Both the position numbers and the translations under genes were made by a program. Of a stretch of DNA of 38,658 bases, positions 14,229 through 38,275 are shown piece after piece. The notes under the pieces were generated by a model. That model saw nothing but the letters and a program-made list of their open reading frames with translations, was not told where the DNA came from and made no database searches. Origin of the DNA: Westiellopsis prolifica IICB1 (lineage in GTDB: Bacteria; Cyanobacteriota; Cyanobacteriia; Cyanobacteriales; Nostocaceae); the NCBI RefSeq assembly GCF_004323185.1, contig NZ_NAPS01000003.1:341747-380404 (forward strand), read 5' to 3'. Numbering within the stretch: the stretch's first letter is position 1; every line of letters begins with the position of its first letter.

Positions 14229-15749
14229 TCATGGTTCAACCTTCCGCCACTGCCGACCGTCACGCTCTAACAAGTCGAAAGCTTCTTTAGGACCCCAAGT
14301 ACCTGCCGCATAATTTGGAAAACTACGAGGGGGTAGGGCTTTCCAGACATCCAAGATTGGTGTCACCACATTCCACCCAATTTCAACATTGTCAGCTCGC
14401 TGGAATAGGGTGGCGTCACCAATCATACAGTCGTAAAGCAGCGTCTCATAGCCGGTACTTGGCTGAGTGCCAAAGTAGTCAGCATATTCAAAATTCATCT
14501 CTACCGTACCCATACGTACACTAGGGCCAGGAACCTTAGCACCAAACTGCAAACTGATGCCTTCGTTGGGATGAATACGTAAAACTAGGAAATTGGGTGT
14601 TAGTTGCTCGATGGGTGTCTGACGAAACAGTAAAAACGGGACGTGCTTGAACTGAATTGCAATTTCAGTCACTCGTTCCGGTAGAGCTTTGCCTGTCCGC
14701 AGGTAAAAAGGTACATCAGCCCAGCGCCAATTGTCAAGCATTAGCTTCAGCGCAACAAAGGTTTCAGTGCTGGAGTTATAGGCAACGCGCGGTTCAGTAC
14801 GGTAAGCAGGCACTGACAAACCTTTCACCGTACCCGCACCATACTGTCCGCGTACTGTTTGGGTAAGAACTTCTTCCGGGCTAAGTGGTTGGATTGCGCG
14901 CAGCAACTTAGATTTTTCATCTCGTACTGCGTCAGCTTCAAACGAAAGTGGTGGCTCCATCGCCATGAGTGCCAGCAATTGGAACATATGGTTTTGCACC
15001 ATGTCCCGCAATGCACCCGCTCCTTCATAGTAACCGCCTCTGCCCTCTACACCAACACTCTCGGCAACCGTAATTTGCACGTGATCAATGTAACGGTGGT
15101 TCCAAACTGGCTCAAATAGACCATTACCAAATCGAAAAACCAAAATGTTCTGTACCGTTTCTTTGCCGAGATAGTGATCAATGCGGTAAACTTGGCTTTC
15201 TTGCAAGACACTACTGATATTTTTATTCAGAGCGCGAGCCGACTCAAAATCATGCCCAAAAGGCTTCTCAATAATTACTCGTCGCCAACTACCTTCTTCT
15301 TCACGAACTAGCCCACTAGTCCCTAGTTGCCACACAATATCGTTAAAGAAATTGGGTGCTGTCGCTAGATAGTATAGGTAATTACCGCGTGTACCGCATT
15401 CTTGATCTACAGTTGCTAGGAGTTCCTGTAACTGCTCGTAAGTGGTGGGGTCTTGAAAATCACCCGACAAATAATATAAATGCTTTTCAAACGAATCCCA
15501 AAGGTGTGTATCGACTGAACTAGTCGCAAACTCATGAATGTCCCGACTCATTTTCTGGCGGAATTCATCGGTACTCATCTGAGCACGAGCCACTCCTACG
15601 ACGGCAAACTCCTTTGGTAAGAGGTTGCTTTGTACTAAGTTGTACAGAGCTGGAATCAACTTACGCTTAGTCAGATCTCCAGCAGCACCGAAGATTACCA
15701 TGACGCAGGGATCACCAGGTCGATCTAGCCATTTATCAGTCATGTTCAT
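14229..15749 (-). CDS. zwf: glucose-6-phosphate 1-dehydrogenase
   Basis: 506 aa, normal length. N-terminal dinucleotide-binding motif [18 protein letters not shown] (from 21), EKPFG (161-165), and the active-site signature [13 protein letters not shown] with Asp191, His192 and Lys196. It oxidises glucose-6-phosphate to 6-phosphogluconolactone, making NADPH. An alternative start two codons in ([10 protein letters not shown]) is equally possible. The usual cyanobacterial zwf is grouped with fbp, tal and opcA; here no opcA or fbp is seen, and the partners are gnd, a tal-pgi fusion and aldolase, so this is probably a second, island-specific copy. A repeat element interrupts the 300-bp gap to gnd. 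Confidence 0.96.
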
Positions 15750-15871
15750 TGTTTTTGTGCCTTGTCATGATTTTCGGGAACTCCACAAAATAAATGATCC
15801 AACTCTTGGCTTTGTCTGTTGCAATTGAATATTTTTGACTTTAGGAGTCCCTAATTTCTCTAAATGCCTAA

Positions 15872-16021
15872 TGGTCTGGCAACCTAGCTTTGAGGGGTTA
15901 AATAAAAAACCGCAGAGGAAGCAGGCGATCAAAGCTTTTCAACACAGAGAACGCAGAGGAAGAGGAGGAGAGGATAAGATGAGAAACTTGGTTTACTCGG
16001 CAAAGATGACTTGTCAAACCA
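15872..16021. repeat. MITE-like element with TGGTYTGRCAA termini between gnd and zwf
   Basis: TGGTCTGGCAA (15872-15882) is mirrored by TTGTCAAACCA (16011-16021), followed inward by CTTTG/CAAAG on both sides, giving a 150-bp element with imperfect terminal inverted repeats. The interior has a purine-rich stretch (ACCGCAGAGG, AGAACGCAGAGG) that recurs inverted at about 23850-23885. A solo copy of the same terminus occurs at 31651-31673. It occupies half of the gnd-zwf gap. Confidence 0.5.
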
Positions 16022-16049
16022 CTATTGCTAACATGGTTTTTATGGGCCT

Positions 16050-17033
16050 TTATGCTCTTGCATTTTGCTCTATGTGTCCACCGAATTTGTATCGCATTGC
16101 TGACAGTAATTTCTCGGCAAAAGTATGCTCCTGTCGTGAGCGGAAGCGTGTATAAAGCGATGCCGATAGCACATCAGCAGGTACGGCTGACTCTATGGCT
16201 GCCATAATTGTCCACCGTCCTTCGCCAGAGTCTTGCACAAAACCTGTATACTCAGAAAGTGTTGGGTTTTCAACCAGAGCCATCGCCGCTAAATCTAGTA
16301 GCCACGAACCCACAACACTGCCTCGACGCCAAACTTCAGCAATCTCTGCTACATTAAGGTCATAACGATAAGCTTCAGATAGTTCTGGCGAGTTGGCATT
16401 ACGGAAGATATCAAAGCCTTCAGCATAGGCTTGCATCAGGGCATATTCGATACCGTTGTGAACCATTTTGACAAAATGTCCGGCGCCATTTGAGCCACAA
16501 TGCAAGTAGCCGTCTTCAGCTGTGCTGCTCAGTTTTTCACGTCCTGGTGTACGGGAAATGTCACCTCGTCCAGGAGCAATAGTTTTAAAAATTGGGTCTA
16601 GATGCTTAACAATCCCTTGTTCGCCGCCAATCATTAAGCAGTAGCCTCGCTCTAATCCCCACACTCCGCCACTAGTTCCTACATCTACGTAGTTGATGCC
16701 TAGATCTTGCAAAAGTTTAGCACGGCGTACATCGTCTTTGTAGTAGGAATTGCCACCGTCGATGATGATGTCACCTGGTGCCATTTTCTGTGCTAGTTCC
16801 ATGACCATCTGCTCTGTTGCCTCACCAGCTGGTACCATTACCCAAGCAACACGAGGTTGAGTCAATTGATTAACGAAATTGTCAAGGGAAGTGGTTCCTA
16901 TTGCCCCTTCACTTTCTAGCTGCTTGACTTTGTCGGGAGTCCGATTGTAGACGACACACTCGTGTCCATCTTTTAGCAGACGTCGGACGATATTTGCACC
17001 CATGCGTCCTAGACCAATCATGCCCAGTTGCAT
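16050..17033 (-). CDS. gnd: 6-phosphogluconate dehydrogenase, decarboxylating (short form)
   Basis: 327 aa, the short 6PGDH class (long enzymes are about 470 aa). Rossmann motif GLGRMG (7-12), DGGNS (92-96), [12 protein letters not shown] (120-131) with the substrate-contacting SGG, and [13 protein letters not shown] with catalytic Lys189 and His192/Asn193. It converts 6-phosphogluconate to ribulose-5-phosphate and CO2. Short-form enzymes are often NAD-dependent, but the residues at the end of strand 2 are Asn30-Arg31-Thr32, like NADP-binding enzymes, so NADP+ is a reasonable guess. It begins 24 bp after the tal-pgi stop. It provides Ru5P, the acceptor used by HPS elsewhere in the window. Confidence 0.93.
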
Positions 17034-17057
17034 ATGATTCTCCTTGAGTTTGCTGAT

Positions 17058-19913
17058 TCAGAACAAGATTTGTTTCATTGCAGTTTGCAGGGTGGTTAAA
17101 CCTGCTTGTACATCTGAACCTAGATGCACTCGCAAAGCTCGTCGCGATCGCTCTGCTAATACCTGAAAGTCACCCCGTGCTTGAGCAGCTTTGACTACAC
17201 CAAAGCTATACTTATGTCCAGGAACAGGTAAGTCAATACTCTCATCGCAGGTAATTTGTAAAAAGATACCGGTATTTGGTCCGCCTTTATAAGCTTGCCC
17301 CGTGGAGTGTAAGAAGCGCGGACCAAAGCCTAAACAAGTTGCTACCTGCTTGGCATCGCGAACAGCTTGCCGAATTGCTTGTAGTTGTGTTTGGTGCAAT
17401 TCGTTCATCTCAATATAAGCCAGTAGTGCAAAATAATCACCGACTTGGATGCGGTCTAGGTGCGCCCGCAGATAGCCAACCAAGGAGCGATCGCTTGTTG
17501 CTTCAAACAGTGCTGCCGCATTTTTCTGATCAGTGAACAACTGGATACGCTTTTCTGTTAATATTGGTGTCTCTGGTGGAAGCGTACCCGTTTGTTCATA
17601 CTTGGATGTCAATTGTCGCGTGGCAATTTTGCTTGCTTCCACATCCGGTTGATTAAAGGCGTTAATCCCAATAATTGAACCTGCAACGGCGGTGGCAAGT
17701 TCCCAACGGAAAAATTCCTGACCTAGTTGATAGGCATCTCGTATTAAGATGCGTACTACAGGTTGTCCTGCTTGTTCTAAAGCATCGACTATTGTATCTT
17801 GCTCTGGATTTGAGTTAGTCTCCAGCTTAATGTAGACAAATAGGCGATCGCTGCCGTACGTATCTGGTGTTCCCAAGGGTTCCTGGTCAATAGGAATCAA
17901 TCCTTTGCCGTCTTTACCTGTTGATTCAGCTAGCAACTGCTCTAGCCACGCACCTAAATCCGAAATAGCTGGTGAAATAATTAAGGTAACTTTATCTCGA
18001 CCTTGTTTGGCAAGCACCCCCAAAATTGTTCCTAATACTACACCAGGGTTATCTGTGGCTGGAACAGTCGCAGCACAAGAATGTACCATTTCTTCAGCAT
18101 AGTCCAGGAACTTTGCGACATCAACACCCATAATCGCCGCAGGTACCATACCAAAATTTGACAGAGCCGAGTATCTGCCACCGATACTGGGTAAGCCCAA
18201 GAAAATGTTACGGAAGCCGTCACTTTGTGCTACTTGCTGGAGTTTCGAGCCGGGGTCGGTGATCGCAATGAAGCGTCTACCTGCTTCTTTTGCCCCCAAA
18301 GCCTGCTGTACCCGCTCGAAGAAATATTGCTTAAATATGTTCGGCTCTAAAGTACCGCCTGACTTACTAGATACAATGAACAGAGTGTTTGTCAGATCTA
18401 CTTTATCTTCAACTGCTTTGATCTGGGCTGGATCTGTTGAATCCAACACGTGTAGTTCAGGGTAGCCCAGCACCTTACCAAAGGTAAGCTTCATCACTTC
18501 AGGACACAGGCTAGAGCCGCCCATTCCTAGTACGACTGCATCCTTAAAACCTCTACTCTTAACTTCTTCGGCAAGTTTTTTGAGGTGGTCAATGTGTGCT
18601 AATTGGTCTTCTGTGATCCCAAGCCAGCCTAGCCAACGGCTCTCATCCTCATTTGTCCAGAGCGACGCATCTCGCGCCCACAACCGTCGTACTTTGTGGT
18701 TGGTGAGCCAATCTTTAAGAGATGCTTCCACGCTTTTAGCTAGAGCATCTGGCAGATAGTAACTTTGCCGATCTAGGGCTGTACCTAGCACTGCTTCACG
18801 CTTTTTTTCCACAACACTTAACAATTTGTCAAATGCTTCAATGAATAACTGTACTCCCTCTGTCAATAGCTGTTGTGTGACCTCCTGTATTGAAATGTTG
18901 ACTCGAGAAAGGGTTTCTATTACATCATGCGCTTCTTCTAAATGCTCTTTCAAGCTATCACGACGTGGTTGTCCATGATCGCGAAATGCGTCAAATGTTG
19001 CTGGTGGAATGGTGTTTACTGTGTCTACACCGATGAGTTCCTCTACGTAAAGTACGTCGCGATACAAGGGATTCTTGGTGCTAGTACTAGCCCATAGGAG
19101 TCGTTGCGTTTGTGCGCCCTGATCGGCTAATGATTGCCACTGAGCGCTCTGATAGATTTCTTGGTAGCGTTGATAAGTCAGTTTAGCATTGGCAATAGCA
19201 ACTTTACCTATGAGGCTTTCCAAAGACGCCTGTTCACTCGAACTGGTAGCTGTCTTGATCCGATTGGTGGCGATCGCATCAATTGCAGTATCAATGCGAC
19301 TGATGAAGAAGCTGGCGACGCTGGCTACCTTAGTTACGTCTCCACCTTGGGCTGCAAAGGCTTCTAAACCATTGATATAAGCATCTGCAACTAAATTGTA
19401 AGTTTCTTGAGAAAATAGCAGTGTGACGTTAACGTTAATCCCCTCACTAATCAGTTGTTTGATTGCAGGGATACCAGCAGGAGTTGCAGGAACCTTAATC
19501 ATAACGTTCTCACGTCTAACTGCTTGCCAGAGTCGTTCTGCCTCGGCGATTGTGCCTTGTGTATCGTGAGCGAGGTAAGGTGATACTTCCAAACTAACGT
19601 AGCCGTCGCGCTTTTTCGTTTGCTTGTATACAGATTGCAAAATGTCAGCAGCATTTTGAATATCACTAATTGCCAATTGCTCGTAGAGCGACATGGCGTC
19701 CATATCTTTTTGCTGCTCAAGTGCCATCAGTGGATCATTGTAGTCATTGCTGCCAGCAATGGCTTTCTCGAAAATAGTGGGGTTAGATGTGACACCACAC
19801 AATCCATCCTCATCGACTAAGCGTTGCAGTTCACCACTGGTAATTAAGCTGCGTCGAATGTAGTCTAACCAGACAGACTGCCCGTAATTTCGCAGAGTTT
19901 GCAGAGAGTTCAT
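17058..19913 (-). CDS. tal-pgi: bifunctional transaldolase / glucose-6-phosphate isomerase fusion
   Basis: 951 aa from the ATG at 19911-19913; the open frame has an earlier ATG at 19952, but the later start has GGA at suitable distance and begins directly at the conserved N-terminus MNSLQTLRNYGQSVWLDYI. Residues 1-~365 are transaldolase: GVTSNPTIFEKAI and MIKVPATPAG, with Lys140 as Schiff-base lysine. From ~390 the chain is phosphoglucose isomerase: GMGGSS (463-468), SSKSGGT (515-521), then a GGRYSALSNFG segment. One protein therefore exchanges fructose-6-phosphate with both glucose-6-phosphate and the erythrose-4-P/sedoheptulose-7-P pool. It is the first gene of the sugar-phosphate block, leading into gnd and zwf. 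The fusion is a known architecture. Confidence 0.94.
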   Translation of the reverse strand: MNSLQTLRNYGQSVWLDYIRRSLITSGELQRLVDEDGLCGVTSNPTIFEKAIAGSNDYNDPLMALEQQKDMDAMSLYEQLAISDIQNAADILQSVYKQTKKRDGYVSLEVSPYLAHDTQGTIAEAERLWQAVRRENVMIKVPATPAGIPAIKQLISEGINVNVTLLFSQETYNLVADAYINGLEAFAAQGGDVTKVASVASFFISRIDTAIDAIATNRIKTATSSSEQASLESLIGKVAIANAKLTYQRYQEIYQSAQWQSLADQGAQTQRLLWASTSTKNPLYRDVLYVEELIGVDTVNTIPPATFDAFRDHGQPRRDSLKEHLEEAHDVIETLSRVNISIQEVTQQLLTEGVQLFIEAFDKLLSVVEKKREAVLGTALDRQSYYLPDALAKSVEASLKDWLTNHKVRRLWARDASLWTNEDESRWLGWLGITEDQLAHIDHLKKLAEEVKSRGFKDAVVLGMGGSSLCPEVMKLTFGKVLGYPELHVLDSTDPAQIKAVEDKVDLTNTLFIVSSKSGGTLEPNIFKQYFFERVQQALGAKEAGRRFIAITDPGSKLQQVAQSDGFRNIFLGLPSIGGRYSALSNFGMVPAAIMGVDVAKFLDYAEEMVHSCAATVPATDNPGVVLGTILGVLAKQGRDKVTLIISPAISDLGAWLEQLLAESTGKDGKGLIPIDQEPLGTPDTYGSDRLFVYIKLETNSNPEQDTIVDALEQAGQPVVRILIRDAYQLGQEFFRWELATAVAGSIIGINAFNQPDVEASKIATRQLTSKYEQTGTLPPETPILTEKRIQLFTDQKNAAALFEATSDRSLVGYLRAHLDRIQVGDYFALLAYIEMNELHQTQLQAIRQAVRDAKQVATCLGFGPRFLHSTGQAYKGGPNTGIFLQITCDESIDLPVPGHKYSFGVVKAAQARGDFQVLAERSRRALRVHLGSDVQAGLTTLQTAMKQILF

Positions 19914-20295
19914 AGTTGCGTTTCCAAAGGTCTTGGTTAACTTTACTTGCATTACAGGTTCTCAACAGGTTTTGCTAATTCCGTTGTCTTCCGCAGCAAC
20001 AATCTTCTGGGCGATGAAGCCAAAATTGTTCTGAGAAAGCTTCAGAGCCAATACTCGAAGGTATATATTCAAGACATGAACTATTGTTGTCGATATAGTC
20101 TCTCTAGCTAAAGGGTAAAAGCATTATTCAACACGGATCAGGGTGCTACTTGGGAGTAACACTCTGTACTAAAGTTTTCACTTAAAAAATTTTTTAACCA
20201 GTGAAGATCACTAAATTAAGAACAAACTTACTAAGAGATGGATAAGTAAGTCGGCACAAATAAATTAGCAGCGTAGACGCGCTTTGCGATCGCTA
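19914..20295. other. promoter region of the tal-pgi block with a repeat end
   Basis: 382 bp without a gene. It must hold the promoter for the minus-strand tal-pgi operon, although I see no unambiguous consensus. At 20243 an AAGTAAGTCGGCACA repeat end begins and continues toward a HIP1 site (GCGATCGC, 20286-20293). No opposite terminus was found nearby, so this copy is partial. Confidence 0.55.
20243..20267 (+). repeat. solo AAGTAAGTCGGCACA repeat end
   Basis: TAAGTAAGTCGGCACAAATA starts at 20243, preceded by GGA, giving the same GATAAGTAAGTC context as the end that overlaps the GH63 stop codon. It lies just downstream of the 348-aa protein gene. Confidence 0.6.
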
Positions 20296-25914: not shown

Positions 25915-25982
25915 TGGGTAATGTAGTCAATTCCAAGGAGCAAACTGAAAATCTATTTAGCCACTATTGTGAGGTAGATAAC

Positions 25983-27223: not shown

Positions 27224-29344
27224 ATGACTGTAACACCAGCTAAATTACACATAGAACTAGCTACGAAAAAGTACGAAGTAGAAGTGGGACGCACACATCC
27301 GTTGGGTGCAACACCTTATAAAGATGGAGTAAATTTTTCCATCTTTTCAGAACATGCAACATCTATCGAACTCTTATTGTTTGAACAGCCTAATGATCCA
27401 AAACCAATCCAGACTATTAAATTAGACCCAAGGAAAAATAAAACTTTTCACTTTTGGCATATCTATGTAAAAGGGTTAAAACCTGGAACTGGTTACGCCT
27501 ATCGAGTTGATGGTCCTCAAGATTTACATCAAGTAGGACATCGTTTTAACAAAAATAAGGTATTACTTGATCCTTATTCTAGAGGAAATGCCAATGCTCT
27601 TTGGAACCGTATTGATGCTTTAGGTTCAAAAGACAATCTAAGCACCTCAATGCGTAGTGTAGTCATTGATACATCTGATTACGATTGGGAAGGCGATCGC
27701 CCTCTCAATCGCCCCATGAGTGATACTGTTATTTATGAGTTACATGTTGGCGGATTTACTAAGTCACCTTCCTCTGGCTGCCAATATAAAAATACTTTCT
27801 CTGGAGTCATTGAGAAGATTCCTTACTTGAAAAAACTAGGTATAACGGCTGTTGAACTTTTACCAATATTTGATTTTGATGAAAAGGAAGTTGTTCGAGA
27901 AGTTAACGGTATACCCTTGAAAGATTACTGGGGATACAATCCCCACAGTTTCTTTGCACCTGAAGTTTCTTATTGTTATTCTCCTGAGGAGAAAAACCCG
28001 ATTAACGAGTTTCGGGATATGGTTAAGGCATTGCATAAAGCTGGGATTGAGGTGATTTTGGATGTAGTCTTTAACCACACCAGTGAAGGTAACCATCAGG
28101 GTCCAACTATTAACTTCAAAGGTATCGCAAATAGTACTTACTATCACCTCGTAGCTTGGGATAAGCAGTATTACATGGATTACTCCGGGTGCGGAAATAC
28201 ATTCAACTGCAATCACCCAATTGCAGAAAAGTTAATTGTGGAGTGCCTGGAATTCTGGGTTAAAGAAATGCACGTGGATGGTTTTCGGTTTGATGAAGGG
28301 TCTATCTTATCCCGTGGGCAGGATGGAGTACCTATGATTCATCCACCGGTGGTTTGGCACATTGAAACATCTGCTACCTTAGCTGAAACCAAAATTATTG
28401 CTGAAGCTTGGGATGCTGGTGGACTGTATCAAATTGGTTACTTTCCTGGCTATCGTTGGGCAGAATGGAATGGGCGCTTCCGTGATGATATTCGGGGCTT
28501 TGTTAAAGGAGATCCAGGACTGGTTGGGGCAGTTGCTGCACGTATTGCTGGAAGTGCTGATCTGTATCAAGAAACAGGGCATTTACCGATTAATAGTATT
28601 AATTTTGTAACTTGTCATGATGGATTTACCCTTAATGATTTAGTTTCGTATAACGATAAACACAATGAAGCTAATGGTGAAAATAACCAAGATGGTATCA
28701 GTGACAATTTGAGTTGGAATTGTGGTGTTGAAGGAGAGACTAATGATCCAATCATTGACAGATTGCGACAGAAACAGATTAAGAACTTTGCAGCTATTCT
28801 TATGCTTTCTCAAGGCGTTCCAATGATATTAGCTGGTGACGAAGTCAGACGCACTCAAAAGGGAAACAATAACGCCTACTGCCAAGATAACGAGATTAGT
28901 TGGTTTGACTGGAATCTTGTAGAGAAGAACGCAGATATCTTCAGATTTTTCAAGTTGATGATTGACTTTCGTCAGTGCTACTGCCATCCTGGCTTACGTC
29001 GCAGTTATTTCTTCACTGGTGAAGTTAATGAACGTGGCCTAGCAGATATTTCTTGGCATGGTTGTAAGCTATTTAGCCCTGGTTGGAACGACCCTGATGC
29101 AAGAGTACTTGCATATACTCTAGGTGGGTTTGAAGGAAATGCAGATATTCACGTCATGTTTAATATGTACTGGGAAGATATGGAATTTGAAATTCCGTCT
29201 CTTGAAGATAGAAAATGGTACAAAGTGGTGGACACTGCTCTTGTTTCTCCTTTAGATATTGTGGAAAGAGGAAAAGAGGTTCTGGTGTCAAGTGATGTAT
29301 GTACTGTCACAAACCGTAGTATAGTCGTTCTCATTTCACAATAG
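27224..29344 (+). CDS. glgX: glycogen debranching enzyme (isoamylase-type, GH13)
   Basis: 706 aa from ATG 27224 (AAGAG upstream). The open frame begins 36 bp earlier at a TTG without ribosome site. An N-terminal CBM48-like domain (GATPYKDGVNFSIFSEHA) precedes the GH13 barrel with all four conserved regions: DVVFNHT, GFRFDEGS with nucleophile Asp357, IIAEAWDAGG with acid/base Glu394, and CHDGFTLNDL with Asp466. It hydrolyses alpha-1,6 branches of glycogen, releasing short chains that phosphorylase or maltodextrin enzymes can use. Cyanobacteria usually have another glgX, so this may be a stress-associated copy. It would supply glucose units to G6PDH encoded on the opposite strand. Confidence 0.93.
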   Translation: MTVTPAKLHIELATKKYEVEVGRTHPLGATPYKDGVNFSIFSEHATSIELLLFEQPNDPKPIQTIKLDPRKNKTFHFWHIYVKGLKPGTGYAYRVDGPQDLHQVGHRFNKNKVLLDPYSRGNANALWNRIDALGSKDNLSTSMRSVVIDTSDYDWEGDRPLNRPMSDTVIYELHVGGFTKSPSSGCQYKNTFSGVIEKIPYLKKLGITAVELLPIFDFDEKEVVREVNGIPLKDYWGYNPHSFFAPEVSYCYSPEEKNPINEFRDMVKALHKAGIEVILDVVFNHTSEGNHQGPTINFKGIANSTYYHLVAWDKQYYMDYSGCGNTFNCNHPIAEKLIVECLEFWVKEMHVDGFRFDEGSILSRGQDGVPMIHPPVVWHIETSATLAETKIIAEAWDAGGLYQIGYFPGYRWAEWNGRFRDDIRGFVKGDPGLVGAVAARIAGSADLYQETGHLPINSINFVTCHDGFTLNDLVSYNDKHNEANGENNQDGISDNLSWNCGVEGETNDPIIDRLRQKQIKNFAAILMLSQGVPMILAGDEVRRTQKGNNNAYCQDNEISWFDWNLVEKNADIFRFFKLMIDFRQCYCHPGLRRSYFFTGEVNERGLADISWHGCKLFSPGWNDPDARVLAYTLGGFEGNADIHVMFNMYWEDMEFEIPSLEDRKWYKVVDTALVSPLDIVERGKEVLVSSDVCTVTNRSIVVLISQ

Positions 29345-29455: not shown

Positions 29456-31627
29456 ATGAACAATATAAATTTTTCATTTTCAGATATGATTGCTGGGTAT
29501 GTTACTGATTTTGACCCACATCAAGGAGCTTTTGGCACTTTTTCTCTTAAGACCTCAGATAGACGGCTCTTTGAAGTAGCATTGACTTCAACTACCTATG
29601 CCGAACTAATACGCAATCTAGGAGAACCTTACTACGATTGCACTAGCCAGATGAAAACAATGCTTGTCCCAGATCGGTATCTTTTTGCCTATGGCATTTT
29701 TTATCATGAAGCAGGCGAACATAAATTAGAAGCTAAACATATAGTTTTTCTAGGTAGAACAGAAAATGAGTATATTTTTGAGAAGCAAGATTGGTGGATT
29801 AATCAGATAGGAAGTCTTGCCAATTTTTACCTAAAAGCCCAGTTTGAAGATGGCGAAATTGATTATCGAAAATATCGTACTGGTATTGGCTTGGTTGGTT
29901 CTAAGGAAGACAGTAATCGCCAAGAAACTGATACTATTTCTCGCTTAGTTTATGGTTTTGCCACAGCTTATATGATGACCGGGGATGAACGCTACCTAGA
30001 AGCTGCGGAAAAAGGTACTGAATACCTGCGTCAACATATGCGTTTTCTGGATGAGGGTGAAGGAATTTGCTATTGGTATCATGCCATTGACGTAAAGCCT
30101 GATGGCAGCGAACAGAAAATATTTTCCTCAGAATTTGGAGATGATTACGATGCTATTCCAGCTTACGAGCAGATTTATGCCCTAGCTGGCCCTACTCAAA
30201 CCTATCGAATAACTGGCGATCCTCGTATCATGAACGATATTGAGTTGACCGTTAATCTTTTTAACAAGTATTTCCTGGATAAAACGGACAAAGGAGGATT
30301 TTTCTCCCATATTGACCCAATTACTCTTAGTCCTCATTCTCAGTCTTTAGGTCATAACCGCGCCAAAAAGAATTGGAATTCGGTAGGTGATCATGCACCG
30401 GCCTATTTGATCAACCTTTGGCTAGCAACTGGTGAAGAGAAATATGCTGACTTCCTTGAGTACACATTTGATACGATTGAAAAGCATTTTCCGGATTATG
30501 ACCATAGTCCATTTGTTCAAGAACGTTTTGATGAAAATTGGGGTCATGATACGACTTGGGGGTGGCAACAGAATCGAGCTGTTGTAGGTCACAACCTGAA
30601 AATTGCCTGGAACTTGATGCGGATGAACCACTTGAAACAAAAAGAAAAGTATGTTGCTCTGGCCGAAAAGATTGCAGAAATTATGCCGGCAGTTGGCAGC
30701 GACCAGCAGCGTGGTGGGTGGTACGACGTATTAGAGCGTGATTTAGAACCAGATCAGAAGATACACCGTTTTGTTTGGCATGATCGCAAAGCATGGTGGC
30801 AGCAGGAACAGGCTATTTTAGCCTATCTGATTTTGACTGGTTCACTTGAGAATCCTGAGTATCGACAGTTGGCACGTGAGTCATCGGCTTTCTATAATGC
30901 TTGGTTCCTTGACTACCAAGCTGGGGGTGTCTACTTTAATGTTTTGGCCAATGGACTTCCCTACTTACTGGGAACAGAGCGAGGCAAAGGCAGCCATTCC
31001 ATGAGTGGCTACCACTCTTTTGAATTAGCCTACTTAGCTACAGTTTATACAAACTTATTAATTACTAAGCAGCCAATGGATTTGTTCTTCAAGCCAAAAC
31101 CAGGTGGGTTTAAGGACAATGTTCTGCGGGTTGCACCAGATATTCTCCCGCCTGGTAGTGTACGTATTAGCGAAGTATGGATCAACGGACAAAAGCATTC
31201 TGATTTTGATGCTGAAAGTTTAGCAGTTAAACTACCATCTTCTCAAGACGAATTGAAAGTTCGAGTGAGACTTCTTCCCACACAGGTGTTCTTTGACGCA
31301 ACACAATTGGAAACTATTAATGGTATTGCCAAGATATCCTTAAGTGGATTACTGGATGCAGATGGTGTAAAACGTCTTCAGGAAGAGTTTGCTAAGGTAA
31401 CACAAAAGCCACTCAAACGTCTTGTCTTACTGGTACAAGATCTAGAATGTATAACTACTGCTGGTATGCGAGCGCTCATTTTCATCAAGCAAAAACTAGG
31501 TTCTGATGTGGAGTTGTATGTGGTTGGCGCACAAGTCCAGGTAGAGCATTTCCTAAGAATGAGTGCATTCTGTGAAGGTATAACACTGGTGAATGAGTAT
31601 GAAGCTATCGAACTAGCTAGCGTATAG
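29456..31627 (+). CDS. AGE-family (N-acylglucosamine 2-epimerase-like) protein fused to a STAS domain
   Basis: 723 aa with a strong GGAGGAG ribosome site. Residues 1-~120 form a beta-rich N-terminal domain of unknown type. Residues ~130-530 match the (alpha/alpha)6 barrel of AGE/cellobiose-epimerase-like proteins, with RFVWHDRKAWWQQEQAILAY carrying the typical H-x-x-K-x-W-W-x-x-x-E signature. A beta linker follows, and ~622-720 is a STAS (SpoIIAA-like) domain: LKRLVLLVQDLECITTAGM, then VELYVVGAQVQVEHFLRMS. At the site where anti-sigma antagonists are phosphorylated (DSSG) it has T667-T668-A-G, so Thr668 could replace the serine. The unusual fusion suggests that a sugar epimerase is either regulated by, or signals to, a partner-switching kinase. 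The sugar substrate is unknown. Confidence 0.8.
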   Translation: MNNINFSFSDMIAGYVTDFDPHQGAFGTFSLKTSDRRLFEVALTSTTYAELIRNLGEPYYDCTSQMKTMLVPDRYLFAYGIFYHEAGEHKLEAKHIVFLGRTENEYIFEKQDWWINQIGSLANFYLKAQFEDGEIDYRKYRTGIGLVGSKEDSNRQETDTISRLVYGFATAYMMTGDERYLEAAEKGTEYLRQHMRFLDEGEGICYWYHAIDVKPDGSEQKIFSSEFGDDYDAIPAYEQIYALAGPTQTYRITGDPRIMNDIELTVNLFNKYFLDKTDKGGFFSHIDPITLSPHSQSLGHNRAKKNWNSVGDHAPAYLINLWLATGEEKYADFLEYTFDTIEKHFPDYDHSPFVQERFDENWGHDTTWGWQQNRAVVGHNLKIAWNLMRMNHLKQKEKYVALAEKIAEIMPAVGSDQQRGGWYDVLERDLEPDQKIHRFVWHDRKAWWQQEQAILAYLILTGSLENPEYRQLARESSAFYNAWFLDYQAGGVYFNVLANGLPYLLGTERGKGSHSMSGYHSFELAYLATVYTNLLITKQPMDLFFKPKPGGFKDNVLRVAPDILPPGSVRISEVWINGQKHSDFDAESLAVKLPSSQDELKVRVRLLPTQVFFDATQLETINGIAKISLSGLLDADGVKRLQEEFAKVTQKPLKRLVLLVQDLECITTAGMRALIFIKQKLGSDVELYVVGAQVQVEHFLRMSAFCEGITLVNEYEAIELASV

Positions 31628-31911: not shown

Positions 31912-33570
31912 ATGGCTAAACCTGTTCTAATTACAATAGATGACGACCCAGAAGTTTTACGGGCGATAGAGCGTGATTTACGCCGTGAATACGGCGAAAA
32001 CTTTCGGGTACTACGTGCTGAATCTGGTCAGATGGCTCTAGAGACACTGAGAAAACTGAAACTACGTAACCATCCAGTAGCTTTGTTGTTAGTGGATCAG
32101 CGGATGCCAAACATGACTGGTGTAGAATTTTTGGAACAGGCTATGGAAATCTTCCCAGATGCCAAACGTGCCTTACTTACGGCCTATGCTGACACTGATG
32201 AGGCTATCCGGGCTATCAATAAGGCTAAGATTGATTACTACTTGATGAAGCCGTGGACTCCTCCGGAACAAGGTTTGTTCCCGGTACTTAACGATTTACT
32301 TGAAATTTGGAAAAAAACCTTTCTCCCATCGTTTGAAGGTGTTCGGGTAATTGGCGATCGATGGTCACCCAAAACACACCAAGTGAAAGATTTTTTGGCA
32401 CGTAATCATATTCCTTACCAATGGTTGGACATTGAGTCAGAGGAAGGGCGCAAGTTGACTACAGACGTTTACTTAGGTGAACTAAAACTACCCTTGCTGC
32501 TCTTTCCTGACGGCTCACATCTTTTACAGCCAACAAACATCGAAATAGCTGAGAAAATTGGGCTGAAAATGCACGCCGAAATGCCATTTTATAATGTGAT
32601 TATTGTGGGTGGTGGTCCGGCTGGTTTAGCAGCAGCAGTGTATGCTGCTTCTGAAGGATTGCACACTGTCATGGTTGAAAAAGAAGCTCCAGGCGGACAG
32701 GCGGGAACTAGTTCCAGAATTGAGAATTATTTGGGTTTTCCGGTAGGATTATCTGGAGGGGATTTGGCTAGACGTGCTGTTGCACAAGCTCAGAAGTTTG
32801 GAGCAGAAATTCTTACACCACAGGAAGTAACTGGTCTTCGTATAGATGGTCAATATCGATATGTAACCCTAGCAGATGGCTCAGAACTAAGCAGTCATAC
32901 AGTAATTATTGCAACTGGTGTATCGTATCGCAGACTTAACGTGCCTGGTAGTGATATGCTAACCGGTGCTGGGGTATACTATGGAGCCGCAATGACCGAA
33001 ACGATGGCTTATCAAGGTGAAGACGTATTTATTGTTGGGGCAGGTAATTCGGCTGGACAGGCTGCTATGCATCTATCTAAATATGCCCGTTCAGTTACCC
33101 TTCTAGTACGTGGGGATTCACTCAAGAAAAGTATGTCTAAGTATCTAATCGATCAGATCGAAGAGACGAAGAACATTGTGGTAAAAGTGTTCACCGAAAT
33201 TACTCAAGTGTTCGGTAAAGATAAGCTTGAGGCAATAACTATTACCAATTCATTAACTCATGAGGTTGAAACTGTCTGTGCTTGCGCTCTTTTCACTTTT
33301 ATCGGTGCAACACCGCGTACAAGTTGGTTACAAGATATTGTAGAGAGAGATTCAAAGGGATACATTTTAACTGGTCCTGATGTTTTGCATGGTGAAACAT
33401 ATCCTAGAGGATGGACACTACCTCGATCGCCATATCTTCTTGAAACTAATATACCAGGAATTTTTGCAGTAGGTGATGTGCGCTACCAGTCAGTAAAGCG
33501 AGTTGCTTCAGCAGTGGGTGAAGGGTCGATCGCTATTCAATTCATACATCAATATCTCTCATCCTTGTAA
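31912..33570 (+). CDS. response-regulator receiver fused to thioredoxin-reductase-like flavoprotein
   Basis: 552 aa; GAGGGAA before the ATG. Residues 1-~125 are a receiver domain: acidic pocket Asp10-Asp12, phospho-acceptor Asp62 in LLLVDQRMPNMTG, and Lys113. Residues ~140-215 look like a thioredoxin/glutaredoxin-fold linker (VIGDRWSPKTHQVKDFLARN) without cysteines. From ~227 the chain is a low-Mr thioredoxin-reductase-type FAD/NADPH module: GGGPAG (233-238), GAGNSAG (376-382), and GIFAVGDVRYQS for FAD. At the redox-active CxxC site it reads GVYYGAAMTE; the only two cysteines of the whole protein are in TVCACA (~456). It therefore cannot reduce thioredoxin by the canonical route. It is 20 bp upstream of a histidine kinase, which presumably phosphorylates Asp62 and gates the flavoenzyme. 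Confidence 0.9.
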   Translation: MAKPVLITIDDDPEVLRAIERDLRREYGENFRVLRAESGQMALETLRKLKLRNHPVALLLVDQRMPNMTGVEFLEQAMEIFPDAKRALLTAYADTDEAIRAINKAKIDYYLMKPWTPPEQGLFPVLNDLLEIWKKTFLPSFEGVRVIGDRWSPKTHQVKDFLARNHIPYQWLDIESEEGRKLTTDVYLGELKLPLLLFPDGSHLLQPTNIEIAEKIGLKMHAEMPFYNVIIVGGGPAGLAAAVYAASEGLHTVMVEKEAPGGQAGTSSRIENYLGFPVGLSGGDLARRAVAQAQKFGAEILTPQEVTGLRIDGQYRYVTLADGSELSSHTVIIATGVSYRRLNVPGSDMLTGAGVYYGAAMTETMAYQGEDVFIVGAGNSAGQAAMHLSKYARSVTLLVRGDSLKKSMSKYLIDQIEETKNIVVKVFTEITQVFGKDKLEAITITNSLTHEVETVCACALFTFIGATPRTSWLQDIVERDSKGYILTGPDVLHGETYPRGWTLPRSPYLLETNIPGIFAVGDVRYQSVKRVASAVGEGSIAIQFIHQYLSSL

Positions 33571-33590
33571 AAACACTGTAGATTTTTGTC

Positions 33591-35015
33591 ATGCTTGATT
33601 TGTTACAAACAATACCCCTATTCAAAAACCTGACCGAAAATCAACTGATGTGTTTGATGAACGGCAGCAACATCCGGCTGAATCCAGGAGAATTACTATT
33701 TAAGCAAGGGGAACCTGCAAAATGCTTTTATGTGGTATTTGAAGGAGCAATCCGCCTAACACGAGAGATTAGTAATCAAGAAGTGATTTTAGCTACATAC
33801 GAAGCGGGTACATTTTTTGGTGAAGTTCCACTTCTTGCGGGTACACTTCATCTTGCAAGTGGACAAGCTGTGGGTCAGTGTCATATATATTGTTTGCACG
33901 AGGAAGAGTTCTGGCAGATGCTTATGTTCTGCCCGTCGGTGAGAAAAGCTGTTCTCGGTTTCATGGCAAGCCGAATGCAAGAGTTACAGATGTTATCTCA
34001 GCAACACGACAAACTCATTTCTTTAGGAACACTAGCAGCAGGTTTGGCTCATGAACTAGGTAATCCAACAGCAGCAGTACGTCGCGCAGCTGGACAGTTG
34101 CACGATATGGTGAACGTCTTACATAACCTCTCGCTTGAGTCTACCGAGCAACATCTCACTCCTGTTCAATTAGAGTACCTCCTGGATCTTAAGTGTAAAT
34201 CCATTGAACGGGTGATTCAAACCTGCGATTTTGATCCTTTAACTCAGCTCGATTTGGAAGATGAACTAACTGACTGGCTAGAATCATATGGTGTTGTTGA
34301 TGGGTGGAAATTTGTTCCTACCCTAGTTGCGGCAGGAATTAAGGCTCAACAGTTAGAAGTAATTGGCAAACATGTAAGTGTTAATACACTCAGTAGTGCA
34401 TTAACTTGGTTAGAAGCAACGCTGGCTATGGCAAGTGTATTAAATGTCCTCGACCAAGGCGTTACTCGCATCTCGGATCTTGTCAATGCTGTCAAAGCCT
34501 ACTCGTATATGGATCAGTCTCCACTCAAGGAGATAACTATTCATGAAGGGATAGAGAATACGCTGACTATTTTGAGCTACAAGCTCAGGAAGCATCGTAC
34601 CCAAGTGGTACGTGAGTATGAGCAAAATCTACCGACTATCGAAGCATATGGAAGCGCACTAAATCAAGTATGGACAAATTTGATTGACAATGCCATAGAC
34701 GCCTTGGGTGAAGGAGGAACAATCTGGATACGTACTTTTAGCGCTCAAGATTGCATTACGGTGGAAATTGCGGATAATGGGCCTGGTATTCCTCCTGAAA
34801 TTCAATCCCGAATTTTCGATCCGTTTTTCACAACTAAGAGTATTGGTGTAGGAACTGGACTAGGTCTAGAGATTGCTTATCGAATTGTAGTGGGTCAGCA
34901 TAACGGGCATATTCGCTGTTTCTCAAAGCCAGGTGACACACGTTTTCAAGTTAGTTTACCTCTCCACTCCTTCCAAGAAATAAACAGATTTAAAAGTGAA
35001 GCAATTCCTGCTTAA
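33591..35015 (+). CDS. soluble histidine kinase with cyclic-nucleotide-binding-like domain
   Basis: 474 aa, no membrane segment. Residues 1-~120 form a cNMP-binding fold with FFGEVPLLAG, but Leu88 stands where the phosphate-binding Arg of CAP-type domains belongs, so it likely senses something else or is a pure protein-protein module. The H-box LAAGLAHELGNPTAAV has His154. About 110 residues (~180-285, including DPLTQLDLEDELTDWLESYG) separate it from the second DHp helix (VTRISDLVNAVKAYSYMD), far more than in ordinary HisKA domains. The ATPase part is complete: N-box QVWTNLIDNAIDAL, ADNGPGIPPE (394-403), FFTTK, and GTGLGL (421-426). Its natural partner is the receiver-reductase encoded 20 bp upstream. 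Confidence 0.9.
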   Translation: MLDLLQTIPLFKNLTENQLMCLMNGSNIRLNPGELLFKQGEPAKCFYVVFEGAIRLTREISNQEVILATYEAGTFFGEVPLLAGTLHLASGQAVGQCHIYCLHEEEFWQMLMFCPSVRKAVLGFMASRMQELQMLSQQHDKLISLGTLAAGLAHELGNPTAAVRRAAGQLHDMVNVLHNLSLESTEQHLTPVQLEYLLDLKCKSIERVIQTCDFDPLTQLDLEDELTDWLESYGVVDGWKFVPTLVAAGIKAQQLEVIGKHVSVNTLSSALTWLEATLAMASVLNVLDQGVTRISDLVNAVKAYSYMDQSPLKEITIHEGIENTLTILSYKLRKHRTQVVREYEQNLPTIEAYGSALNQVWTNLIDNAIDALGEGGTIWIRTFSAQDCITVEIADNGPGIPPEIQSRIFDPFFTTKSIGVGTGLGLEIAYRIVVGQHNGHIRCFSKPGDTRFQVSLPLHSFQEINRFKSEAIPA

Positions 35016-35037
35016 AAGAAAACATAAAGGAGAATTA

Positions 35038-35325
35038 ATGACTATGGGGTATACAGATTTTAATCAGTTACAAGTAGTCAGACCCAGAGCTAATGGCTGC
35101 GAGGAATGCTTGGCAAGTGGAGACACCTGGGTACACTTGCGGGTTTGCCTCATATGTGGACATGTTGGTTGTTGTGATTCCTCTAAGAACAAGCACGCTA
35201 CAAAGCATTTCCACTGCACTGGTCATCCCTTGATAAAGTCCTTTGAACCTGGTGAGAACTGGGCTTGGTCTTATACCGACAAAACCTTTGTACATTTACC
35301 AGCAACTAATAAAGCTGATACTTGA
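35038..35325 (+). CDS. UBP-type zinc finger protein
   Basis: 95 aa from the ATG at 35038, which has AAGGAGA at ideal spacing; a longer frame begins inside the kinase gene. Almost the whole chain is a ZnF-UBP domain: CEECLASGD, VCLICGHVGCCD, then NKHATKHFHCTGHPLI, supplying the Cys/His ligands for three zinc ions as in eukaryotic deubiquitinases and HDAC6. There is no catalytic domain. In bacteria such small proteins recur next to soluble histidine kinases and thioredoxin-reductase-like proteins, so it is probably part of that signalling module. It starts 22 bp after the kinase stop. The ligand in a bacterium is unknown. Confidence 0.88.
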   Translation: MTMGYTDFNQLQVVRPRANGCEECLASGDTWVHLRVCLICGHVGCCDSSKNKHATKHFHCTGHPLIKSFEPGENWAWSYTDKTFVHLPATNKADT

Positions 35326-35511
35326 GTTTTATGTTATGTCTGCATCTAGATTCATACCGCAATTAAGCAATGTCAAAAAAATTAAGTTTTTCTATCCTTT
35401 CTCCTTAGTTTTTTACCCATAACTGAATAGTGTTGTTTCAAAAACTCAGTTCTTTCTCTTTTGTTGCTCTTAGTCAAGTTCCGTTATATACAAAAATATG
35501 AGGGCTTAGAC

Positions 35512-36675
35512 GTGAAAACCTGGTTTCAACCTCCTCGTCTACGCATTGATGCAGAAAGCGAAAAAAATGGTCATGCTACTTGGCTGGAACTTTTCTATGA
35601 TTTAGTATTTGTAGTTGCGGTATCACAAGTTGCCCACAATCTTAGTGAAGATATCTCTGTATCAGGATTTTTTAATTTTGTATTTCTGTTCATTCCAATT
35701 TGGTGGGCATGGATTGGCACCACATTTTATACCAATCGATTTGATATTGATGACATAGGTCATCGCTTGCTGATTGGTGGGCAAATGGTAGCGATCACTA
35801 CCTTAGCAGTAAATACACATTACGGCTTGGGAGAAAGTTCAATTGGCTTTGCTCTATCCTATGCTGTTGGAAGAGCTATGCTTGTTATTGAATATCTGCG
35901 TGCTGCAAGGCATATTCCTGTAGCGCGTCCACTAGCAATTCGTTACGCACAGGGTTTTGCGATCGCTGCTGCTCTTTGGCTGATCTCAGCATTTATACCC
36001 ATTCCATTTCGTTTTGGTTTTTGGGCATTGGGGCTAATTGTAGACTTCGCCACACCTCTAACAGCCAAACACTTACAGTTAGGACTAAGCCACCATGTCG
36101 AACACTTGCCGGAGCGTTTCGGGCTATTCACCATCATTGTTCTGGGGGAAGCAATTATAGGCGTGGTTGATGGTCTCTCTAATCAAAAGTGGGATGCTAA
36201 AAGCGCACTTGCTGCAATATTCGGTTTTAGTATCGCTTTTAGTTTGTGGTGGGTCTATTTTGAAAATATTGGTAACTCAGCTCTGCGTTCTGCTAATGCA
36301 ACTGGTCAAATAGGCATTTATCAAATTTGGCTATACGGGCATTTACCATTGGTTATTGGACTCACTGCTACTGGAGTTGGCGTCAAACACATTATATTAA
36401 GTGATCCTAATGTAGCACTGGCTACACCAGAGCGCGTGGTTCTCTGTGGCACGGTAGCATTATGCTTGCTAGCTCTAGCTCTTTTGCATCGTACTGGAGT
36501 TATACGCTATTGTAAAATTCGTTCTAGGTTTCGCCTTCGTTCTGCAATTATCCTTCTCATACTTGCCATAGCTGGCAAAGGTTTGTTACCTGTTGTGGTA
36601 ATCGGGCTTGTAGCTATAATCTGTGCTGTTCAAGTCATTCAAGATTTGTACCAAAGCCGTCTCTTAGTCTTTTAA
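35512..36675 (+). CDS. ltrA: low temperature requirement protein A (LtrA) family membrane protein
   Basis: 387 aa from the GTG at 35512, preceded by GAGGG; the frame also extends to a TTG at 35461. The N-terminus HATWLELFYDLVFVVAVSQVAHNL is the signature of the LtrA family, and around ten hydrophobic helices follow, with HHVEHLPERFGLFTIIVLGEAIIGVV as the second conserved block. Inner-membrane protein; the molecular function of the family is unknown (cold growth in Listeria gave the name). It sits between the redox signalling module and the RuMP genes, with 186 bp upstream. Confidence 0.88.
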   Translation: MKTWFQPPRLRIDAESEKNGHATWLELFYDLVFVVAVSQVAHNLSEDISVSGFFNFVFLFIPIWWAWIGTTFYTNRFDIDDIGHRLLIGGQMVAITTLAVNTHYGLGESSIGFALSYAVGRAMLVIEYLRAARHIPVARPLAIRYAQGFAIAAALWLISAFIPIPFRFGFWALGLIVDFATPLTAKHLQLGLSHHVEHLPERFGLFTIIVLGEAIIGVVDGLSNQKWDAKSALAAIFGFSIAFSLWWVYFENIGNSALRSANATGQIGIYQIWLYGHLPLVIGLTATGVGVKHIILSDPNVALATPERVVLCGTVALCLLALALLHRTGVIRYCKIRSRFRLRSAIILLILAIAGKGLLPVVVIGLVAIICAVQVIQDLYQSRLLVF

Positions 36676-36735
36676 GAAGTACCGTGTAAATCTCACTTGA
36701 AGTTTTACATTAGTATTAGAAAGGAAATAATTATC

Positions 36736-37332
36736 ATGGCCAATGTTTCTCAAAATCTTATTGATAGAGACATTAATACCGAGTTTAGTAAAGTCGTTGA
36801 ATTGGTGTTAATCGAAAACAAACAGGTTTTAGAAAAGGTCAATTATTCATCAGTTATCCAACTTGGGCAAGCAATTCTAAATACCCAAAGAATCTTTGTG
36901 GCTGGTGAAGGTCGTAGTGGCTTAGTGATTCGTATGTTTGCTATGCGGCTGATGCATTTAGGACGACAGGTCTATGTTGTGGGTGAAACCATTACTCCAG
37001 CAATTCAACAAAGTGATTTACTAATAGATTTTTCCGGTTCAGGTACCACTGAACATGTTTTAGAGATTGCGTGTAAAGCAAAAGAAATCGGTGCATATAT
37101 TGCTAGTGTCACAACTCAAATCGATTCCCCATTAGCCAAAATAGCTAATTTTTTAATTCACATAGAAGCTGCGGCTAAACAAGATCATAGTCATCAATAT
37201 TCACAACAATTTAGTGGTTCTTTATTTGAGCAATCTTCTTTGTTAATATTTGATGCTTTGTTTCATTTTTTATCTCATAGTATCAATAAAAATGCTGAAA
37301 CTCTTTGGGCTTTGCACGCTAATCTTGAATAA
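36736..37332 (+). CDS. hxlB: 6-phospho-3-hexuloisomerase (SIS domain)
   Basis: 198 aa from ATG 36736 (AAGGAAAT upstream); a longer frame from a TTG at 36697 lacks a ribosome site. Single SIS domain: FVAGEGRSGLVIRMFAMRLMHLG with GRSG (59-62), YVVGETITPAI and DFSGSGTT (98-105). The combination and the C-terminal ALHANLE ending are typical of PHI rather than other SIS isomerases. It converts D-arabino-3-hexulose-6-phosphate to fructose-6-phosphate, the second step of formaldehyde fixation in the RuMP pathway. It is encoded upstream of its partner HPS, with 301 bp between the two genes. Confidence 0.9.
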   Translation: MANVSQNLIDRDINTEFSKVVELVLIENKQVLEKVNYSSVIQLGQAILNTQRIFVAGEGRSGLVIRMFAMRLMHLGRQVYVVGETITPAIQQSDLLIDFSGSGTTEHVLEIACKAKEIGAYIASVTTQIDSPLAKIANFLIHIEAAAKQDHSHQYSQQFSGSLFEQSSLLIFDALFHFLSHSINKNAETLWALHANLE

Positions 37333-37633
37333 TTGATACTGGTGGTCTACCACACAAAATTTGCGGAGTTTGTAATCAGGTATAAAGCCCTTAAAATAGT
37401 TATAAAAGAGGACTAAAGTCCTCACTACAAACACTTCAAAATTAGGTGAAAGACTACTAGTAATACCATTTCACGTTAATCGCGATATATATAAATAATG
37501 TAGAGACACGATATATCGCGTCTCTACAGGGTCTGTATTTGTATCAGGCTTTTCGTGAAATCGTATAAGTAATTTTCAAGCATAACTAATACAAGATCAG
37601 AGCAAATTATTTGAACAAAAAAGAGGTTGTTTA
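37333..37633. other. 301-bp spacer between hxlB and hxlA with palindromic repeats
   Basis: Contains GAGGAC-TAAA-GTCCTC (37408-37423), a hairpin that could attenuate hxlA, and a 28-nt palindrome at 37500-37527 of the GTAGAGAC...GTCTCTAC type with CGATATATCG at its core. AAAAAGAGGTT precedes the hxlA start. No gene is seen. The repeats may uncouple hxlA from hxlB. Confidence 0.6.
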
Positions 37634-38275
37634 ATGAAATTACAAGTTTCTGTAGATTTATTGTCATTAGAGCAAGCAATTAAATTGCTTAAAGATGTTG
37701 TTGATTATGTAGATATCATCGAAGCTGGTACTCCTTTGATTAAGCAAGAGGGATTGAAGGTTGTCGAAACTTTTAAACAATCTTTTCCAGATAAACTCAT
37801 TTTTGCAGATATGAAGACGATGGATGCTGGAGGCCTAGAAGCTGAAATGGCATTCAAAGCAGGAGCAGACTTCACTACAATTCTAGCTGTATCAAATGAC
37901 AGTACTATTAAAGGAGCTGTGACAGCTGCTCGTAAGTATGGGAGATATGTTACTGCTGATATGATTTCCGTTTCAGATCGTGTACAACGTGCGCGCGATT
38001 TAGAAAAGCTAGGAGTTAATTACTTGGAACTGCACTGCGGATTAGATGAGCAAGCTAATCATTTGTGTGCTTCAACTGCAAACGAACTTGCAGTTCTACG
38101 AGGTGCGGTTTCAATATCTCTCTCTGCTGCGGGGGGTATCAATGAGAATACAATTCAGGAAGTAGAAGCAGCAGGAGCTGATGTCGCAGCAGTTGGTGCT
38201 GCTATTTACAATGCTAAGTCTCCTGTTGAATCTGCACGTCGTTTACGGGAGAAGATTAATTCAAAACCTCTATAG
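37634..38275 (+). CDS. hxlA: 3-hexulose-6-phosphate synthase
   Basis: 213 aa, the normal length for free-standing HPS. The OMP-decarboxylase-superfamily barrel has Asp8 (VSVDLL), Glu30 followed by AGTPLI (31-36), and the signature ADMKTMDAGG with Asp59, Lys61 and Asp64, then ELHCGLDEQ and SAAGGIN. The TMDAG part and AGTPLI distinguish HPS from KGPDC/UlaD relatives, though a related decarboxylase cannot be wholly excluded. It condenses formaldehyde with ribulose-5-phosphate to 3-hexulose-6-phosphate, or runs backward to make Ru5P. With hxlB it completes a RuMP module; Ru5P would come from the gnd product encoded in the opposite-strand block. Confidence 0.92.
   Translation: MKLQVSVDLLSLEQAIKLLKDVVDYVDIIEAGTPLIKQEGLKVVETFKQSFPDKLIFADMKTMDAGGLEAEMAFKAGADFTTILAVSNDSTIKGAVTAARKYGRYVTADMISVSDRVQRARDLEKLGVNYLELHCGLDEQANHLCASTANELAVLRGAVSISLSAAGGINENTIQEVEAAGADVAAVGAAIYNAKSPVESARRLREKINSKPL

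Follow-up and report, generated by a model that had tools for sequence, protein, structure and literature searches.

Introduction

The dissimilatory ribulose monophosphate (RuMP) cycle of methylotrophs uses five enzymes, namely 3-hexulose-6-phosphate synthase (HPS), 6-phospho-3-hexuloisomerase (PHI), phosphoglucose isomerase (PGI), glucose-6-phosphate dehydrogenase (G6PDH) and 6-phosphogluconate dehydrogenase (6PGDH), and its net reaction converts formaldehyde to CO2 and reduced cofactor, according to passages of PMC5023230 and PMC11136667. The same five enzymes, with the same predicted net reaction, are encoded in the window analysed here, by which is meant the whole stretch of 38,658 nt at positions 341747-380404 of contig NZ_NAPS01000003.1 (C12 below) of the cyanobacterium Westiellopsis prolifica IICB1 (genome total 7.3 Mb; labelled G000). 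Unlike in the methylotroph cycle, the host is a photoautotroph, as judged from its cyanobacterial placement, PGI is fused to transaldolase, and pyrroloquinoline quinone (PQQ) alcohol dehydrogenase does not exceed the cut-off in the genomes with HPS. The genes also form two groups on opposite strands, which are found separately in relatives.

A cyanobacterial HPS-PHI has been published before. The RuMP genes hxlA/hxlB of Chroococcidiopsis sp. CCMEE 029 came from a KEGG module reconstruction and were interpreted as formaldehyde assimilation potential (passages of PMC13308351); neighbouring genes and the oxidative branch do not figure in these passages. The second close system is the housekeeping cyanobacterial G6PDH-OpcA, whose redox switch is located mainly in OpcA in the available parts of PMC13071761, PMC9025218 and PMC13214033; G6PDH itself is also listed as an in vitro thioredoxin target in part of PMC9025218. 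The window would be like this system in supplying NADPH via the oxidative pentose pathway, and it differs in its G6PDH, which has about 50% identity to the housekeeping enzyme and is without three cysteines conserved there. In the literature searched, with partial coverage and with subscription journals mostly outside it, no report linking HPS-PHI to an operon of transaldolase/PGI fusion (tal/pgi), 6PGDH (gnd) and G6PDH (zwf) was found. New here are a plasmid-type ParAB, the N-R-T/S motif of cyanobacterial island 6PGDHs, and an island G6PDH without the three housekeeping cysteines.

The window probably represents a stress island, perhaps plasmid-borne, with a second oxidative pentose set that would make NADPH from sugar, and a block of carbonyl and redox genes. 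PHI-HPS would be an optional formaldehyde trap at the edge of this island, feeding the same enzymes.

Second Oxidative Pentose Gene Set

Enzyme calls were judged against curated NCBIfam cut-offs. HPS, PHI, the fusion, G6PDH and 6PGDH had been named in a sequence-only reading of the window, and all of them stand, with open reading frames (ORFs) that are open and full length and scores above the cut-offs (Table 1). The class I aldolase (NF006704, 508 bits) and the transaldolase half of the fusion (TAL_FSA) are present in the window as that reading had said. Its gene positions are right as places, except that the longest ORF of the fusion begins at 19952, and 19913 is the second ATG.

An ordinary zwf (C8:2459068) with an adjoining tal match (C8:2460887) and a full-length gnd (C1:763733) are found elsewhere in the genome, and the island enzymes are therefore second copies. 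A 6-phosphogluconolactonase was found outside the window in a whole-genome search (TIGR01198, 276 bits, cut-off 124, C1:1652014). The genome's two matches to lactonase models are on contig C1 and neither lies within the window, so the lactonase step must use an enzyme from elsewhere. With it, HPS, PHI, PGI, G6PDH and 6PGDH make the dissimilatory RuMP cycle chemically complete in the genome. As housekeeping zwf, gnd, tal and lactonase are all present, the cycle could also close without the island operon.

The sample for HPS, PHI and fusion counts was 145 same-family genomes, G000 included. Eleven genomes exceed the NF007080 cut-off for the fusion, and ten were used, as G050 has the PGI half only. 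Fusion, gnd, zwf, HAD hydrolase and aldolase are grouped in all ten (the window and nine relatives); G109 has shortened forms of zwf and HAD, and the aldolase match of G112 is partial. Transketolase stands before the fusion in three genomes, G116, G112 and, by sequence cluster, G111. A lactonase-family gene is present in the G018 and G111 clusters, and the related clusters L158 and L160 have a gene of the 6-phosphogluconolactonase Pfam family. In G050, separate neighbouring tal and pgi frames are found elsewhere, and the island site (L167:10468-12186) has the PGI half only.

HPS and PHI

The genome has one copy of HPS. The nearest solved chain is the HPS 3ajx with 195 bits, and 3-keto-L-gulonate-6-phosphate decarboxylase (KGPDC) 1kv8 reaches only 82 bits. 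At three positions discriminating HPS from KGPDC, which we take to be E112, R139 and T169 of KGPDC, the window protein has D, L and A in the alignment, the same as 3ajx; the KGPDC chains there, 1xbx and 1xby, are presumably mutants, with the wild type not in the alignment shown. An ascorbate-pathway decarboxylase was rejected as the identity of this protein. KGPDC-type models give 120 and 102 bits, both under their cut-offs, against 240 bits for the HPS model, and the solved-structure matches contradict it as well.

PHI matches the solved structures 1m3s, 1vim and 1jeo. Its frame opens at 36697 with TTG, and an ATG at 36736, shortly 3' of AAAGGAAA, is more likely the start. The spacer between PHI and HPS is 301 bases long in the window (37333-37633) and about 10-65 bases in relatives; it contains a near-perfect 15+15 palindrome that resembles an inserted repeat. 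Across phyla, HPS loci were taken from 80 of 159 relatives (54 Actinomycetota, 9 Bacteroidota, 10 Acidobacteriota and 7 cyanobacterial), and PHI is in the same locus in 78 of them. In the HPS tree, from which 5 of 81 rows (L094, L100, L102, L106 and L148) were omitted because of a stop within the translated match, the eight cyanobacterial rows all fall to the same side of a branch supported at 100/100. Calothrix NIES-4105, which is among them, has a long branch and odd letter composition.

Arrangement and Distribution in Relatives

HPS exceeds the cut-off in 6 of the 145 family genomes (G000, G109, G044, G078, G080 and G115), PHI in 7 (the same six and G018), and the full-length fusion is found in 10 (G000, G109, G078, G111, G116, G018, G112, G033, G007 and G076). 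G000 and G109 are congeneric, and the other two sampled members of their genus, G004 and G057, have neither HPS nor fusion above the cut-off. In an order sample of 388 genomes searched at E 1e-30, HPS was found only in G000 and G080. A weak HPS-like match in G111, containing two stops, reaches 54 bits and falls short of the cut-off.

In the window, about 16.8 kb separate the fusion from PHI, and the two lie on opposite strands. In G078, PHI begins about 15.6 kb beyond the end of the fusion, and both are on the same strand. The two halves are on two short contigs in G109, and the contig ends agree with the window order. Both window blocks are present in G018 at 84-92% identity, one with LtrA, zinc finger, kinase, reductase, epimerase, GlgX, DJ-1, the 188 aa protein and carboxymuconolactone decarboxylase-like protein (CMD), the other with glucosidase, SDR, WrbA, aldolase, HAD, zwf, gnd and fusion. 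An EthD-domain protein adjoins LtrA there, at the site taken by PHI-HPS in the window. No HPS match was found in the G018 genome, and its sole PHI above the cut-off lies 5 Mb from the island; this PHI (L159:11018-11617) is flanked by two DJ-1 genes. The two blocks are adjacent in G050, with the fusion reduced to its PGI half and no HPS match. Three genomes (G000 with the window, G109 and G080) have PHI-HPS close to where the second block ends; in G080 it follows GlgX, epimerase, reductase and kinase, and the fusion is missing. With the island lacking PHI-HPS in G018 and G050, and PHI-HPS lacking the fusion in G080, PHI-HPS resembles an add-on to an island that can do without it.

In the sequence-only reading the five enzymes were one selected dissimilatory RuMP module, which clears formaldehyde and makes NADPH. 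Part of this has held, as the enzymes are genuine, HPS is nearer to solved HPS, and the N-R-T/S motif of 6PGDH strengthens the NADPH part. That they are one module is unlikely. In its favour, fusion and PHI share a contig in G078 as in the window, at a spacing of about 16-17 kb, and HPS and full-length fusion, which the proposed comparison with relatives finds together in 3 of 145 genomes (G000, G109 and G078), co-occur more often than the 0.41 expected per genome (P=0.004). Counted per genus, however, co-occurrence is 2 against 0.71 expected and not significant (P=0.14). Of the 10 fusion genomes, 7 have no HPS above the cut-off, and 3 of the 6 HPS genomes have no full-length fusion, which argues against the two being kept as a unit, and G018 retains most of the island without PHI-HPS. 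The halves are on opposite strands in the window, and the island zwf of G109 is shortened, its match being split into one piece with 41% and another with 12% of the protein, and its ORF having 268 aa. Both zwf and HAD are shortened where they join in G109 (L156:6928-8222), possibly by a deletion or by faulty assembly. A shared promoter word was not found either in the upstream regions of 11 fusions and 9 PHIs, a comparison of low power with related sequences and simple letter shuffles. The best 8-mer occurs in 5 sequences; in the shuffles the maximum averaged 4.3 and the top was 6, and the best 9-, 10- and 11-mers never exceed the top shuffle.

Loci in other phyla speak in part for such a module, and the cyanobacterial loci against it. 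L088 (Epilithonimonas) and L116 (Pontibacter) have a run of PHI, HPS, gnd, zwf and a lactonase-family gene, the last by scan in L088 and by cluster in L116, so HPS-PHI is physically joined to oxidative pentose enzymes as in the window. Each differs from the window in being a single run of one orientation; the gnd encodes 472 aa, tal/pgi has no match at these loci, and the two make up 2 of 9 Bacteroidota loci. With window proteins as queries and some loci cut short at their ends, a zwf at most 10 kb from HPS is found in 16/54 Actinomycetota, 2/9 Bacteroidota and 0/10 Acidobacteriota loci, and gnd in 4/54, 2/9 and 0/10, respectively; for cyanobacteria the count is 0/7 for both genes.

Cofactor and Control of the Island Enzymes

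TIGR00872 calls the island-type 6PGDH NAD-dependent, and NF007161 says NADP. An N-R-T/S motif after the second strand marks NADP use. It is present in all 12 cyanobacterial island 6PGDHs, as N-R-T in 11 and as N-R-S in one, and the housekeeping enzyme has N-R-S. Two alphaproteobacterial 6PGDHs have D-R-N and D-Q-N at this position, D-R-N being the Sphingomonas plasmid copy. The letters hint that the cyanobacterial island 6PGDH has switched from NAD to NADP.

For G6PDH, 13 island rows (12 cyanobacterial and one Sphingomonas) were compared with 19 housekeeping rows, some of them shortened, so that a column has 10 to 19 letters. Three housekeeping cysteines (19/19, 19/19 and 17/19 rows) are missing from the island form (0/13, 0/13 and 0/12). 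A fourth is common to both forms (10/10 housekeeping, 12/13 island), and some cysteines are frequent in, and particular to, the island form, e.g., at window residue 15 in 10/13. As the redox switch is mainly in OpcA, the cysteine loss alone is no proof that island G6PDH escapes control. At about 50% identity to the housekeeping copy, loss of OpcA binding by the island G6PDH is possible; the scan of window genes recognised no opcA. A light-proof oxidative pentose shunt is a tentative and rather doubtful extension. In such a shunt, G6PDH would escape the OpcA-thioredoxin light-off switch, 6PGDH would have changed from NAD to NADP and PHI-HPS would add formaldehyde burning, and a drying cell would make NADPH in the light and clear carbonyls.

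Plasmid Relatives of the Island

A ParA-ParB pair is located on C12 about 6 kb beyond HPS (L201:5911-7667). It matches 48 plasmid records, and the 7 matches over at least 80% of the length, with 75.5-76.8% identity, are cyanobacterial plasmids of 215-235 kb. To judge from this pair, a plasmid origin of contig C12 with the island is likely, though short of proof. The operon itself has plasmid relatives. A Fischerella plasmid has the tal/pgi-gnd-zwf order with transketolase and cytochrome oxidase genes upstream. A plasmid of Sphingomonas sanxanigenens has the same order of tal/pgi fusion, short gnd and zwf. It differs from the window in transketolase (tkt) upstream, in Hsp20 downstream and HdeD near, in the 6PGDH motif (D-R-N, not N-R-T) and in the absence of HPS-PHI from the stretch shown; this run beside Hsp20 also weakens the single-module claim. 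Fusion and tkt are annotated in 7 Sphingomonas/Sphingobium plasmid records. The plasmid protein search with HPS gave 150 plasmid records, every one below 60% identity, and a DNA-level HPS search of plasmids gave no match.

PHI-HPS could also be mobile cargo, a chance neighbour of the sugar-burning operon which clears formaldehyde through the housekeeping enzymes. The ordinary zwf, gnd, tal and pgl of the genome would permit this, the plasmid-type ParAB is close by, and in G044, G115 and Stenomitos PHI-HPS is in other settings where neither zwf nor gnd has a match within about 9-10 kb. The close spacing in two differently arranged genomes, the window and G078, is nevertheless hardly accidental unless islands collect such genes, and this explanation seems improbable.

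Other Genes in and beside the Window

Positions of the recognised genes are in Table 1. The reductase-regulator, kinase and zinc finger genes stand in a row at 31912-35325, and the row is present in G109 and G018 too. The left edge has a DDE_Tnp_1 transposase at 7-910, with an overlapping ORF in another frame without Pfam match. Just past HPS, a single-module protein resembling nonribosomal peptide synthetases, with AMP-binding, carrier and thioesterase domains, is encoded (L201:615-4526).

Table 1. Genes recognised in the window, with positions, strands and profile matches (scores in bits).
Feature	Position	Strand	Match and remarks
Glucosidase-like glycoside hydrolase, MGH1-like domain	7847..10534	-	PF22422 80; relative annotated glucosidase, Nostoc edaphicum plasmid
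Short-chain dehydrogenase/reductase (SDR) dehydrogenase	10796..11605	-	Pfam adh_short_C2; copy at least 74% identical near operon in G109, G018, G111, G112, G076
WrbA-like flavodoxin, possibly NAD(P)H:quinone oxidoreductase	11702..12283	-	NF002999 108, under cut-off 141; also G109, G018
Class I fructose-bisphosphate aldolase	12319..13239	-	NF006704 508, cut-off 277; near operon in relatives
Cof-type HAD hydrolase	13239..14168	-	TIGR00099 161, cut-off 137; near operon in relatives
Second G6PDH, island type	14229..15749	-	TIGR00871 665, cut-off 400.6; about 50% identity to housekeeping copy
6PGDH, short type, N-R-T motif	16050..17033	-	TIGR00872 405, cut-off 297.2; NF007161 472, cut-off 271
Transaldolase-PGI fusion, 964 aa (951 from second ATG)	17058..19952	-	NF007080 1525, cut-off 712; Pfam TAL_FSA and PGI
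CMD	24763..25155	+	PF02627; second block, also G018, G050
188 aa protein	25348..25914	+	No Pfam/NCBIfam match; also G018, G050
DJ-1/PfpI protein, possible glyoxalase or deglycase	25914..26612	+	PF01965 51, under NCBIfam cut-offs; also G018, G050
Glycogen debranching enzyme GlgX	27188..29344	+	TIGR02100 709, cut-off 641
N-acylglucosamine 2-epimerase-like domain with STAS tail	29456..31627	+	PF07221, PF01740
Response regulator fused to thioredoxin-reductase-like flavoprotein	31912..33570	+	Pfam Response_reg, Pyr_redox_2; match in 15/16 genomes searched
Cyclic-nucleotide-binding histidine kinase	33591..35015	+	PF00027, PF02518
UBP-type zinc finger protein	34996..35325	+	PF02148
LtrA membrane protein, directly upstream of PHI	35461..36675	+	PF06772 332
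PHI, 198 aa from ATG	36736..37332	+	TIGR03127 229 (scored from TTG 36697), cut-off 160
HPS, 213 aa	37634..38275	+	TIGR03128 240, cut-off 200

Discussion

A stress island with an optional formaldehyde trap would work as follows. In its first part, the fusion, 6PGDH, G6PDH, HAD hydrolase and aldolase, together with sugar-polymer genes and in some relatives with transketolase or lactonase, would yield NADPH from sugar that is stored or comes from outside. The second part would be the carbonyl- and redox-type genes, i.e., DJ-1, CMD, the regulator resembling thioredoxin reductase, and the kinase. HPS would join formaldehyde to ribulose 5-phosphate, and PHI would convert the product to fructose 6-phosphate. 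With the help of a lactonase encoded elsewhere in the genome, PGI, G6PDH and 6PGDH would bring fructose 6-phosphate back to ribulose 5-phosphate with release of CO2 and NADPH.

Several observations weigh against this explanation. The stress label is drawn from the neighbour genes, and any inducing stress is a prediction. In relatives, PHI-HPS has neighbours that speak for the explanation (glyoxalase, SnoaL and EthD in G080; HbpS, glyoxalase, SnoaL and EthD in Nostoc sp. WHI), but the PHI-HPS of the window is without the glyoxalase, HbpS and EthD. The plasmid view depends on a single ParAB pair compared with plasmid records only, and C12 has 568 kb. A glutathione-dependent formaldehyde dehydrogenase exceeds the cut-off in all 6 HPS genomes, and HPS is thus not the sole sink. 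PQQ alcohol dehydrogenase exceeds the cut-off in none of the 6, with one weak 84-bit match in G109, so by this test the HPS genomes are not classical methylotrophs. The gene scan recognised no enzyme that makes formaldehyde, and of the possible sources only PQQ alcohol dehydrogenase was searched for. HPS would then be a second sink for formaldehyde of environmental or metabolic origin.

HPS-PHI in reverse, making ribulose 5-phosphate from fructose 6-phosphate, which the sequence-only reading had offered as an alternative, is known from archaea, and the reactions are reversible; it is very improbable here, as ordinary and island G6PDH and 6PGDH already supply ribulose 5-phosphate and the reverse reaction would free formaldehyde.

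If PHI-HPS and the island enzymes cooperate, W. prolifica would be a photosynthetic bacterium with a complete route from formaldehyde to CO2, a route associated with methylotrophs, and the CO2 would be re-fixable. Even if they do not, the second G6PDH/6PGDH set, possibly escaping the light-off switch, opens a test of the oxidative pentose pathway in the light under stress in some cyanobacteria.

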